Shown here in pieces: positions 15,243 to 19,257 of a stretch of DNA of 64,000 nt (within the stretch, counting starts at the first letter, position 1; each line of letters opens with the position of its first letter). The notes beneath the pieces were generated by a model that was not told the DNA's origin, searched no databases, and saw only the letters and a program-made list of their open reading frames with translations. Source of the stretch: Segatella baroniae B14. Lineage in GTDB: Bacteria; Bacteroidota; Bacteroidia; Bacteroidales; Bacteroidaceae. The translations under genes were made by a program, and so were the position numbers. Location of the stretch: contig NZ_CP091799.1 in the NCBI RefSeq assembly GCF_022024235.1, positions 1,987,001 through 2,051,000 of the forward strand, written 5' to 3'.

Positions 15243-18200
15243 TTAGAATGTAATTCTGAAACCACCACCAAAGCTTGAAGTGTTAGGTACAGAGAAACGC
15301 TCGAAATAACCACTCATGTTACCATTACCCTGTGAACTTTCAGGATCAAGGTTAGGCATCTTAGACCACAACAGAATGTTTCTTGCGAAAGCATATACAG
15401 ACATATCAATACCAGCGAACTTAGGCAAATTGTATGACAAGGTTAAGTCGCGAAGTTTCAAATAACTTGTATCGAAGATACCTGCTTCAGTAACATCGTT
15501 GTAAGCCTGGTAGTATTCCTGTTTGCTTACCTCCACGGTATTCTTCTGACCAGTTGCCTCATCGATACCCTCAGCTACCATAGTACCTTCATGGTAAGGA
15601 AGAGATTCTTCTGTTGCACCGAAATAATTCATGGTCAAGATAGTACCGTTGTACATGCGACCACCTTTCTGCCAATCCAATGTAGCAGCAAGATTCAAAC
15701 GCTTGTAGTTTACATTCAGGTTGAAGCCCATGTTAAAGTCTGGAGTACATTCACCCAGGTTTACACTGGCAGAAGTAGCCTGTGGAAGACCATCTACGAG
15801 GAGCAACTGACCATCTTCTGCACGCTTGAATGCGTAACCATAGATATTAGGATAGGTGTAACCTGCCTGAGCACGTATCTGTGGCTCTACGAAACCACCT
15901 AACATGATACTTTCTACACCCTCAGCGAGTTCCTTAACCTTGTTGTTTACTGAAGTAAAGTTAACACCTAAGTCAACATTCCAGTCCTTACTTTCTACAA
16001 TAGCAGCCTTAACAGAAAGCTCGTGAGCCCATGTTGTCATACGACCAGCATTGGTACGAAGATACTGATAGCCTGTAGAACCAGCAGTAGGAACATCAAA
16101 GATCTGGTCTTTTACATCCTGATAACTCAAGGTGTATTCTACCTTTACTCTATTCTTGAGGAGACCTAAGTCGAGGCCCATTTCCCAGTTAGAAGTATTC
16201 TGTGGCTTCAAATTCTCATCAAACTTGACATAGTAAGGAGAATAAGCCGTTGCACCACCAAGAGGATAAGAAATAGGAGTATAGATATACATACCACTAC
16301 CATAAGAAGGTACATACATATAGTTACTGTAGAACTGACCAGCCTGGCCTACCTGAGCATAAGAGGTACGCAATTTACCATAAGAGAGGAAATCACTCTT
16401 TAAAGCAGGAATCTCTGTGAAAATCCAACCCAATGATACAGATGGATAGAAGAAAGAACGGTTGCCACGTGGCATAGTAGAAACAATATCGTTACGTCCT
16501 GTTGTTGTGAAGAACAACATATTCTTCCAAGATAAAGAGAGTTGACCAAAAGTACCAACGGTACGTTCCTGATGGTTGTATTCTGAATGAATATCGATAG
16601 AAGTGGTGTTACCAATAACTGGCTGACCATAGAAAGCCAAACCTGAACCATCGTAATCCCAATAGCGCTTGCTTTCGTGGTTGAACTCGTTACCGAGCAA
16701 GAAACCGAAATCCCATTCTTTATCTGCACCCCACTTAGCTGTGAAATTAGCAGTAAACAAGTTGTTGAAGATATTAACTTGAACACCATAGTTCTCTACT
16801 TCACCCTTATTGTTATAAGCAGAACCGATTTCAGCTACTGTACTGTTGTTGGTAGTATAGACATCAATACCAGCCTGCTCACGGAAAACGAGGTTATATT
16901 TATCTGTATCCCAATTGAACTTAGGGCGATACTCTGCGTATGCATTACCAAATACACGGTTGGTGTGCTGAGAGAACTCATCATTGTCAGCCCACCAGTA
17001 TGGGTTATTAAATGTAGTACTACGGAATAAGACCTGACTGGTAGGGTCACCAGGAACACTGTAAGGAGTACCCTTCAAATTATACTCAGCAGGAGCAGAG
17101 TAAACCACGTTCATAATACCATTGTTAGCACCAGGAGCAGAGGTAATCTTCACTGCACTATAGTTAGCTGAGAAACCCGTCTTCCACTGATCGTTCACCT
17201 TCCAGTCTACAGCACCACGAGCACCAGTACGGGTCATACCTGTAGAAGGGATGATACCATTCTGATAAGTATCGCTGATACTAAATGAGTAGCTTACATC
17301 ATTTTTCATTTGAGAGATGTTGAAGGTAGAGTTCTGGGTGAAACCAGTTCTGAAGAAATCACTTACATTATCATAAGTCTGAGGAGTAGTCCAACCATCT
17401 AAACCGGCAGATGCATATTTAGGATTATAGTACTGACCAGCATGTGAAGTCAAATCACCATTGGTATACTTATTATTAGTATTACCACCATAAGTTGGGT
17501 CATTAGCCAATTCGCTAATCTTAGGTCCCCATGTCATTGAAGCGTTTGGATTATATGCATCTATACTGTTACCCTGAGCATAAACATCCTGATGTTTGAA
17601 CTTACGGCTAACAGTCTGAGCACTCAAATCTGTAGAGAAAGTAATCACTGGCTTGTTAGACTGCTTGTGACCACGCTTAGTAGTAATCAAAACAACACCA
17701 TTAGAAGCACGAATACCATAAAGAGCAGAAGCTGCCTGACCCTTCAAGATATTGATAGACTCTATATCCTCTGGGTTGATATCAATAGTTCGACTTGCCT
17801 GGTCAGCACCGGTTACAGAGTTACCAGTACTATAGTCAGCCTGAGAAGAAATAGGCATACCATCAACTACATACAATGGAGTATTGTTACCATCGAAAGA
17901 ACGTGCACCACGAATTGTAATCTGGGCAGAAGCACCAGGTGCACCTGATGAAGTACGAATATCAACACCAGTAAGTTTACCTTGCATGGCACTTGCCAAA
18001 GAAGATGTACCAGCCTTGTTCAATTCGCTGGCATTCAATGACTGAGCAGCATAGCCTAAGGCTTTCTTGTCGCGTGAAACACCCATAGCTGTAACTACAA
18101 CTTCATCCAACACTTTATTGTCTGGATCAAGTTTGATGGTCATGTTACTAGAAGCAGAAACCACCTTAGTAATCATACCTAAGTAAGATACTTCAAGTTT

Positions 18201-18404
18201 GCTACCTGTAGGCACAACAACTGAGAAGTGACCATCGATATCGGTCACTGCACCTATTTTAGTACCCACAATCTTCAGTGAAGCACCAACAACGGGTTCT
18301 CCATCTTCACTAGAAAGTACGGTACCTGAGGCTTGTGTCTGAGCCAAAGCCATTCCTAAACTAAGGAATAAGCAGGCGAAAAAAGTCATGAGTCTTTTTT
18401 CCAT
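15243..18404 (-). CDS. SusC/RagA-family TonB-linked outer membrane protein (SusC1)
   Basis: TonB-dependent outer membrane importer, 1053 aa. Signal peptide (residues 1-21), then a carboxypeptidase-regulatory-like beta domain (about 25-105, SGTVLSSEDGEPVVGASLKI), the TonB box region (LDEVVVTAMG), the plug (about 115-240, with YVVDGMPIS and SINILKGQAASALYG), and a 22-strand barrel ending in a terminal Phe (FGGGFRITF). There is no N-terminal STN signalling domain, so ECF-type signalling through this receptor is not expected. It leads the susC1-susD1 operon from a strong promoter at 18502-18533. Its first 100 residues are very close to those of SusC2, suggesting an old duplication. Confidence 0.94.
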   Translation of the reverse strand: MEKRLMTFFACLFLSLGMALAQTQASGTVLSSEDGEPVVGASLKIVGTKIGAVTDIDGHFSVVVPTGSKLEVSYLGMITKVVSASSNMTIKLDPDNKVLDEVVVTAMGVSRDKKALGYAAQSLNASELNKAGTSSLASAMQGKLTGVDIRTSSGAPGASAQITIRGARSFDGNNTPLYVVDGMPISSQADYSTGNSVTGADQASRTIDINPEDIESINILKGQAASALYGIRASNGVVLITTKRGHKQSNKPVITFSTDLSAQTVSRKFKHQDVYAQGNSIDAYNPNASMTWGPKISELANDPTYGGNTNNKYTNGDLTSHAGQYYNPKYASAGLDGWTTPQTYDNVSDFFRTGFTQNSTFNISQMKNDVSYSFSISDTYQNGIIPSTGMTRTGARGAVDWKVNDQWKTGFSANYSAVKITSAPGANNGIMNVVYSAPAEYNLKGTPYSVPGDPTSQVLFRSTTFNNPYWWADNDEFSQHTNRVFGNAYAEYRPKFNWDTDKYNLVFREQAGIDVYTTNNSTVAEIGSAYNNKGEVENYGVQVNIFNNLFTANFTAKWGADKEWDFGFLLGNEFNHESKRYWDYDGSGLAFYGQPVIGNTTSIDIHSEYNHQERTVGTFGQLSLSWKNMLFFTTTGRNDIVSTMPRGNRSFFYPSVSLGWIFTEIPALKSDFLSYGKLRTSYAQVGQAGQFYSNYMYVPSYGSGMYIYTPISYPLGGATAYSPYYVKFDENLKPQNTSNWEMGLDLGLLKNRVKVEYTLSYQDVKDQIFDVPTAGSTGYQYLRTNAGRMTTWAHELSVKAAIVESKDWNVDLGVNFTSVNNKVKELAEGVESIMLGGFVEPQIRAQAGYTYPNIYGYAFKRAEDGQLLLVDGLPQATSASVNLGECTPDFNMGFNLNVNYKRLNLAATLDWQKGGRMYNGTILTMNYFGATEESLPYHEGTMVAEGIDEATGQKNTVEVSKQEYYQAYNDVTEAGIFDTSYLKLRDLTLSYNLPKFAGIDMSVYAFARNILLWSKMPNLDPESSQGNGNMSGYFERFSVPNTSSFGGGFRITF

Positions 18405-18501: not shown

Positions 18502-18533
18502 CAAAGTTATATTATTTTTTAAATTTAAACAAA
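18502..18533 (-). promoter_or_regulatory. susC1 promoter
   Basis: On the minus strand TTTG (18530-18533), 20 bp, TAACTTTG (18502-18509), then CACCCAATAAGA. The leader ends in ACAGAGAGAGATTTT directly before the start codon. Confidence 0.8.
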
Positions 18534-18649: not shown

Positions 18650-18732
18650 TTACCAACCTTTGGTAACATGATTACCAATATGTGGTAACAACGTTACCAA
18701 AGGTTGGTAACGACATTACCACATAATGGTAA
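18650..18732. repeat. Array of four 17-bp TTACC-N7-GGTAA palindromes with a 22-bp period
   Basis: Units start at 18650, 18672, 18694 and 18716: TTACCAACCTTTGGTAA, TTACCAATATGTGGTAA, TTACCAAAGGTTGGTAA and TTACCACATAATGGTAA, each followed by a 5-bp spacer. Unit 3 is the exact reverse complement of unit 1, and unit 4 is the reverse complement of unit 2 with one change. The period is about two helical turns, so bound dimers would line up on one DNA face. It lies about 120-200 bp upstream of the susC1 -33 box, which fits a cooperative operator or enhancer; the binding protein is unknown. Confidence 0.75.
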
Positions 18733-18816: not shown

Positions 18817-19257
18817 TTAGGAGAAGTCATATACATCTTGGTAATGATCAAACTCTAGACATTTCGTATACCCAAAGTTTTTGAACATCGCAAGGATATT
18901 CTCCTGCTGATTAGGAGTAAGCACTCGCTCTCCCCTATTATAGCGATAATAAGTACCATTACCCCCAAGATAAGCCTTCACTCGCCTATGCAAAGTAGCA
19001 CTATCCGCTCGTGTTAACTGTCGGAAGAGTTCATTCATTCCCCAGGCACCACGCATAATACGTATCTGCTTGAAATGTACACAACGCCCATCATGAAGTG
19101 CTGTAGGATAAACAGCAGGACCAAAGGATACGTTAGCAGGAACATGCTCCCCTGCTAAATGACTAATACAGGCTGTAGCCATTGGACAGTCTTGAACGAA
19201 ACATAAAGGCCACGATGGTGGCACCATGTCAAATGTAAATTTCAATTTCTTATCCAT
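18817..19257 (-). CDS. DUF6078-like conserved hypothetical protein
   Basis: 146 aa, no signal peptide or membrane segment. The N-terminal half has closely placed cysteines (LCFVQDCPMATACISHLAG and DGRCVHFKQIR) that could bind a metal. The C-terminal half contains RRVKAYLGGNGTYYRYNRGER and a helical end. It looks like the small DUF6078 proteins common in Prevotella and Bacteroides; no function is established. It stands between the two susCD operons on the same strand, with a -7 box (TATATTTG, 19331-19338) about 75 bp upstream, and no terminator recognised behind it. Confidence 0.6.
   Translation of the reverse strand: MDKKLKFTFDMVPPSWPLCFVQDCPMATACISHLAGEHVPANVSFGPAVYPTALHDGRCVHFKQIRIMRGAWGMNELFRQLTRADSATLHRRVKAYLGGNGTYYRYNRGERVLTPNQQENILAMFKNFGYTKCLEFDHYQDVYDFS

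Follow-up and report, generated by a model that had tools for sequence, protein, structure and literature searches.

Organization of the locus

Four palindromic sites of the form TTACCA-N5-TGGTAA were found by sequence match (no strand assigned) at positions 18650..18666, 18672..18688, 18694..18710 and 18716..18732 of the window, i.e., the whole 64-kb stretch of DNA that was analyzed. The array is located between the stop of a minus-strand ORF of 146 aa (18817-19257) and susC1 (15243-18404, minus strand), which encodes a TonB-dependent receptor and, while a neighbor of the array here, is unlinked to it in other genomes. The distance from the array to the start codon of susC1 is 245 bp; the other end of the array lies 84 bp beyond the stop codon of ORF 18817-19257, which was absent from a preceding sequence-only reading of the window.

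The TTACC-N7-GGTAA units described in that reading are spaced exactly 22 bp apart (starts at 18650, 18672, 18694 and 18716), and all four extend to TTACCA-N5-TGGTAA. No further exact TTACC-N7-GGTAA was found in the 64-kb window. Since Markov simulation of the window gave 0.043 expected exact sites per window and no pair of sites at 22 bp in 300 simulated windows, the array is not a product of chance, in agreement with the reading. Each step corresponds to TTACCA-N5-TGGTAA-N5, so that the half-sites flip their orientation every 11 bp. The arrangement supports the earlier proposal of a row of putative sites for a symmetric DNA-binding protein, with a period of about two helical turns.

The order A, B, A', B' that had also been read from the units is literally present (site 3 is the exact reverse complement of site 1, and site 4 that of site 2 except for one base), but the family does not share it: none of 104 other arrays with at least four units has this order, a count on which a long cruciform formed from this order was rejected. 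Within arrays, the identity of the N5 segments in direct orientation was 0.59 for neighboring units vs. 0.28 for random pairs; in inverted orientation it was 0.30-0.35 at unit distances of 1-4, a slight excess only (arrays of one MAG excluded).

The window sequence at 18502..18509 (minus strand) contains a promoter-like element (TAACTTTG) of the Bacteroidota -7 type, assigned to susC1. The susC1 promoter had been placed about 120 bp from the array; a promoter-like site does lie on this side, at 140 bp, but it is not thought to be the target of the array. On the opposite side, the product of ORF 18817..19257 (minus strand) matches the Pfam family DUF6078 (PF19555) over residues 1-145 with an E-value of 5.5e-37 and 127.8 bits (cut-off 27), and is the proposed cognate array-binding protein. 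DUF6078 was named in no paper of the literature searched.

Occurrence of the arrays in other genomes

The strain's own genome (two contigs, 3.63 Mb) contains a second array of four sites with a 22-bp step at C1:1452716-1452798, flanked by GH31-like and GH2-like genes (named by eye). It lies about 33 bp upstream of the GH2-like gene in locus L011:7246-16945, which also holds GH31-like and hybrid two-component-like genes (by eye). Regarding 398 genomes of the same genus (part of a larger genus), a search for two sites with a free spacer of 0-30 bp detected TTACC site pairs in 34, with up to 77 pairs per genome, whereas the reversed-pattern control yielded 0 matches. Among the matches listed, the sites mostly lay 22 bp apart, otherwise 44-45 bp apart around a decayed unit. 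In named genomes, at least 120 stretches were detected, mainly from Prevotella; the matches listed also came from records labelled Bacteroides, Parabacteroides, Tannerellaceae, Leyella and Hoylesella, while Flavobacterium contributed one match of two units. The motif at 22-bp spacing, whose recurrence in related genomes the sequence-only reading had proposed to check, is thus recurrent.

In a set of 121 arrays from 120 loci, arrays of five units (47) and of four units (31) are the most frequent. Gap orientation was readable on both sides for 82 arrays (41 tandem, 24 convergent and 17 divergent), the other 39 of the 121 being dropped because they overlapped a called ORF (11) or had no complete neighbor on one side (28). 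All intergenic gaps of the same loci, a background that includes the array gaps, comprised 135 tandem, 62 convergent and 68 divergent (chi-square p 0.47 vs. the arrays). The arrays are dispersed repeats without a preference for the promoter sides of genes. Four clusters of ORFs occurred near arrays in at least four genomes, namely DUF6078, its antisense frames, sigma-factor-like proteins (57-1183 bp from the arrays) and GH43-like genes (32-86 bp from the array in 4 genomes; L048, L080, L088 and L122).

Linkage of DUF6078 to the arrays

By profile search, DUF6078 was detected in 9 of the 120 array loci, in 9 different genomes, with the array always 3' of the gene; one of these genes (L073) is cut by the end of the locus, and this copy was omitted from the alignment. 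Flanks of 500 bp were scanned for repeat periods of 12 to 40 at 115 DUF6078 loci (not deduplicated) chosen regardless of arrays, of which 65 carried a lag-22 repeat on either side. Downstream of DUF6078 such a repeat was present in 47 of 112 flanks (another period in 17) and upstream in 18 of 114 (another period in 42). For other genes the figures were 19 of 488 flanks downstream (Fisher p 7e-24) and 13 of 444 upstream (Fisher p 2e-6). The control flanks were taken from the 120 array-bearing loci, minus flanks touching known TTACC arrays. The count of 115 omits 31 loci, 25 (out of one set of 116 DUF6078 loci) from TTACC-array genomes and six beside such an array (the window and five others; at least four of the six are second copies of fetched loci). 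DUF6078 loci in TTACC-array genomes had a lag-22 repeat in 24 of 25 cases. The upstream arrays came mostly from one branch of the DUF6078 protein tree. Against the linkage, 50 of the 115 loci had no repeat of period 22 in their 500-bp flanks that passed the threshold.

DUF6078 is present in 26 of the 34 TTACC-array genomes vs. 213 of the 364 others, a weak association that would be compatible with cores differing between genomes, though it is no proof of this. It is missing from eight of the 34, among them G012 (99% complete), whose 13 TTACC pairs occur with no trace of DUF6078, which counts against a strict dependence of the arrays on the gene. In G324 only a DUF6078 tail is left, directly before a TTACC array with decayed units, and the gene looks to have been lost. 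The recurrent partner of the array is likely DUF6078, not susC1.

Half-site diversity

The half-sites found beside DUF6078 included TTACCA, TTACAA, CTACCA, GTTCCA, TTCCCA, GTCCGA, GTACGT, GTTTCT and TGACCA, i.e., the letters vary by lineage and the 22-bp geometry is constant. The palindrome center was odd in 76 of 78 lag-22 repeats beside DUF6078. Against a null of simulated palindromes, 65 of the 78 reached the 95% level and 13 remained below. Regarding the 65 proteins with a passing array, reduced to 61, protein distance and array distance were correlated (Mantel rho 0.44, 0 of 1000 permutations).

Dispersed arrays of the core adjoining DUF6078 were searched in 62 genomes with exact two-unit patterns, with cores assigned by hand and "cognate" defined by the fetched DUF6078 loci. 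They were found in 14 of 20 cognate vs. 23 of 228 other genome-core pairs, and the reversed-pattern control produced a single match, in one genome. The individual cores yielded 4/5 cognate vs. 9/57 other pairs for GTCCG, 5/5 vs. 6/57 for TTACA, 2/2 vs. 3/60 for GTTCC, and 3/8 vs. 5/54 for GTTTC, the weakest core. Three genomes counted as "non-cognate" (G072, G182 and G254) have an additional DUF6078 gene, located 15-280 bp away from an array with the core in question.

Covariation between protein residues and half-site bases

Covariation was evaluated in 67 non-redundant DUF6078/array pairs (from 72 pairs). The strongest associations of alignment column and half-site base were 100/base 1 (z 13.2), 130/base 1 (10.8), 105/base 5 (10.4), 104/base 2 (9.4), 85/base 5 (9.0) and 101/base 4 (8.8); four of these six columns (100, 101, 104 and 105) lie in a predicted helix, 100-107. 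In the training set, N100 occurred with T1 in 19 of 21 called cases and R100 with G1 in 16 of 17, Y/F104 with T2 in 62 of 62, S104 with G or A in 4 of 4, G101 with C4 in 37 of 37, and R105 with C5 in 37 of 40. When permutation was restricted to clades, columns 101, 104 and 100 were the top three, columns 130 and 85 dropped out of the top 15, and column 105 ranked 14th (clade cut 0.6) or 6th (0.65); this control is coarse, the largest cluster holding 34 or 48 of the 67 pairs.

The frozen rules were applied to a hold-out of 53 loci, corresponding to 52 proteins, 37 of which had a usable array. Of the held-out loci, 23 (L298-L320) came from genomes chosen for arrays of unexplained core, and for L303, L311 and L312 the proximity of an array was known beforehand from pattern listings. 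R/K/V100 was accompanied by G1 in 13 of 14 cases, against 1 of 7 for N100; K/R/P101 by T4 in 6 of 8; G/S/T101 by C4 in 24 of 25; and R105 by C5 in 16 of 19. The one protein with S104 was found with TGACC, as predicted, and five proteins with L105 or M105, residues unseen in training, all had A5. The rule E105 to G5 failed (9/13 in training, 1/11 in the hold-out) and the rule N100 to T1 was weak (3/7 in the hold-out). In total, the frozen code gave 97 of 120 bases correctly vs. 86 for a constant TT-CC guess, so that it is of use for positions 1 and 4 but still incomplete for the others. The half-sites were oriented by the family consensus, which favors T2 and C4, so that position 2 is weak evidence. 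In statistical terms, the half-site sequence follows the residues of one helix at columns 100, 101 and 104, and at column 105 in training and partly in the hold-out. For the window protein (N100, G101, Y104, R105) the code gives T T. C C., matching TTACCA.

Predicted structure of DUF6078

An AlphaFold2 model based on nine sequences had a mean pLDDT of 69.5 and was confident only for residues of about 71-140. The top matches in Foldseek and VIA-align were small helix-turn-helix (HTH) regulators (C.Kpn2I, Aca10, Stl, YdaS, MqsA and HigA), with weak scores: the best Foldseek E-value was 0.35 and the best VIA Z 4.9, with unrelated folds (e.g., PBP3) close behind. With respect to the five-helix HTH fold, the best Z was that of Aca10, aligned over 53 residues, and C.Kpn2I reached Z 4.2. 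The XRE/lambda-repressor-like HTH proteins (C.Kpn2I, Aca10, MqsA, HigA) resemble DUF6078 as its top, though weak, fold matches and in having a helix that, as proposed for DUF6078, reads symmetric half-sites. They differ in that DUF6078 has an N-terminal region with conserved cysteines, that its arrays occur in all kinds of intergenic gaps and not at one promoter operator, and that Pfam yields DUF6078 alone above the cut-off. Of 116 aligned DUF6078 proteins, 96-100% retain the cysteines at positions 19, 24, 30 and 59, which suggests that the protein may bind zinc.

Among other Pfam families, PrmC_N was the best match (E 0.0032, in 2 of 9 members). A search of the PADLOC families gave none at E 0.1, PHROGs gave three uncharacterized families only (E 0.039-0.051), and a sequence search of the PDB gave weak matches only (E 0.15-0.57). 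None of the defense or phage families fits convincingly.

Alternative explanations

According to the sequence-only reading, the array could serve susC1; in this explanation, a regulator bound to the array as the susC1 operator controls the downstream SusC/SusD pair. The array does lie upstream of the promoter-like site of susC1, and the GH2-like gene comes immediately downstream of the genome's other array, so that both own arrays are followed by sugar genes. However, just one of 121 arrays had a SusC-like start no more than 600 bp downstream of it, and convergent gaps hold arrays as often as expected. Regarding 11 SusC homologues from 11 other genomes (the nearest with 71% identity over 250 residues), a TTACC array was absent within 700 bp upstream in all cases, including two genomes (G012 and G024) which carry TTACC arrays elsewhere, and a 22-bp repeat of any kind within 500 bp upstream was found in none of the 11. 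Two of the homologues have a 22-bp repeat of a different core 590-750 bp upstream. One of these, in L279, starts at about -752 and has a TTCCCAC core, which recurs in the array adjoining that genome's DUF6078 gene (L257); the other, in L283 (G032), has a TTTACC/TAAAC core (GTTTA/TAAAC-like) of the same geometry and extends from -654 to -588. The site is not conserved upstream of susC-type genes, where the reading had proposed to look for its recurrence, and a role as susC1 operator is considered highly unlikely. An operator of promoters in general was likewise rejected, the arrays showing no bias in gap context. Replication is the second function to be weighed: DUF6078 would be the initiator of an iteron-like origin, the array its iterons, a primase-helicase with a BT4734-like N-terminal domain and/or a VapE-like domain the helicase, and the dispersed arrays relics. 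Such an origin is distinctly unlikely here, as no VapE was found in the own genome, VapE occurs in only two of 120 array loci (both with DUF6078), the repeated sites are palindromic, and a genome may have as many as 247 unit pairs, which is unlike origins. The alternative is kept alive by a VapE-type gene within the fetched flanks of 58 of 169 DUF6078 loci (duplicates included). The matches were downstream on the same strand in 36 of 59 cases, and an array was also present in 34 of the 58 loci. Plasmid iterons with 22-bp steps are known. The iteron origins of R6K and F share with the present system an array at about two helical turns near the gene of a DNA-binding protein, and about a third of the DUF6078 loci have a primase-helicase gene; unlike them, the DUF6078 system has palindromic units, chromosomal dispersal and no VapE in the own genome. 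Genes with a BT4734-like N-terminal and/or VapE-like domain were seen near DUF6078 in L207, L351, L057, L173, L298 and others.

The TTACC arrays are dispersed, intergenic, palindromic, alike within a genome and located beside a co-evolving gene, and in these respects they resemble REP elements and their RAYT transposases. REP/RAYT systems are reported to consist of dispersed, lineage-specific intergenic palindromes, one copy of which adjoins a protein gene; the protein and the repeat co-evolve, and the abundance of the repeats follows the cognate gene (PMC2817692). In the arrays, a repeat with many dispersed copies likewise co-evolves with an adjoining gene, with DUF6078 in the place of RAYT. 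That a RAYT transposase has spread them as classical REP/BIME elements is nevertheless hardly credible. The fold matches did include two IS200/IS605-type transposases at low rank (Z 2.5 and 2.4), but DUF6078, an unrelated HTH-like protein of 146 aa, matched no transposase family in Pfam, and a Y1 transposase (PF01797) yielded 0 matches in the own genome, while controls matched in 5 of 14. In contrast to REP elements, the palindromes are arranged head to tail, mostly four to five at 22 bp, and they have no GTAG head: a constant GTAG/CGTC tag beside the palindrome is absent, positions 18-22 carrying 0.01-0.18 bits in 369 TTACC units. Palindromes with a CGTC tag are reported from Bacteroidetes among other phyla (PMC3733652); the TTACC arrays are without such a tag. 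That the array acts as RNA, its transcript forming successive hairpins to which an RNA-binding protein attaches, is an extremely improbable alternative. Each unit could fold, the array lies 3' of the DUF6078 gene, and double changes are mostly complementary (16 of 19 at positions 1/17 and 8 of 8 at positions 5/13). In tandem arrays, however, the sense strand showed no surplus of G-U (13) relative to A-C mismatches (21), 17 arrays lie between divergent genes, and Rfam gave no match near the gathering score, only irrelevant weak ones. The covarying helix and the lack of a wobble bias favor duplex DNA over RNA.

Proposed role of the array

The array at 18650-18732 is very probably the cluster of cognate sites of the adjoining, putatively HTH-like DNA-binding protein DUF6078, a prediction of binding drawn from comparative sequence evidence. 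Helix 100-107 of the HTH-like C-terminal domain would read the six-base half-site directly, with N100, Y104, G101 and R105 contacting T1, T2, C4 and C5 of TTACCA, respectively, and one DUF6078 dimer would cover each palindrome. With a step of 22 bp, successive dimers would face the same side of the DNA, so that four or five of them could form one cooperative complex, compact along the row.

Because the arrays ignore promoter orientation, a block, insulator or chromosome-organizing role is favored. The bound complex may tentatively be regarded as a promoter-independent nucleoprotein block or chromosome-organizing site of a REP-like repeat family, with a likelihood that falls somewhat short of even; classical promoter regulation is rather unlikely as the role of the array, and replication still less probable. 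The ranking of the promoter-independent block or organizer ahead of the other two is weakly held. Whether DUF6078 and its 22-bp arrays together constitute an undescribed dispersed-repeat system of Bacteroidota is evenly balanced; it would be a transposase-free counterpart of REP/RAYT, in which small, Cys-rich HTH-like proteins, each with its own half-site, seed and occupy from a few to more than 100 intergenic arrays per genome independently of promoters.

If so, the DUF6078 system possibly organizes the chromosome or insulates genes, with a partly readable amino-acid-to-base code. With DUF6078 as the array-binding protein, an uncharacterized family gains a specific role and a site sequence that can partly be read from its own residues, and the presence of one type of intergenic repeat in Prevotella and its relatives is explained. 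Natural protein-DNA pairs that differ in few residues and bases would provide material for recognition studies. The pairing of protein and array also raises the question why genomic sets of sites turn over together with the helix that reads them.

Further observations on individual genomes

In the Prevotella MAG RGIG5162 (L052, L063, L103, L125, L139, L149), the arrays are found inside longer dispersed repeats with flanks conserved on both sides, possibly a MITE-like carrier. A mobile element was rejected as an explanation of the arrays: aligned arrays of one MAG did reveal longer repeats whose flanks are shared, but neither target duplication nor an empty site was established. In the Bacteroidetes MAG RE-18aug17-270 (L050, L053, L083, L097, L134, L148), highly regular arrays reach 13 units and have GTTAC/GTAAC as a conserved spacer; they perhaps represent a separate 22-bp system. 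No integrase or phage genes were recognized in the 20-kb surroundings of DUF6078 in L351 and L354 (by eye, first 70 residues per ORF), while the surroundings available in L353 span 5.7 kb; L351:803-8519 (G024) contains a CRISPR-Cas-looking block (Cas3/Cas6-like, by eye) adjoining the DUF6078-array-virE locus. The most extreme expansion was observed in G097 (DUF6078 locus L188), with 247 GTCCG and 115 GTTTC two-unit matches and three DUF6078 genes.
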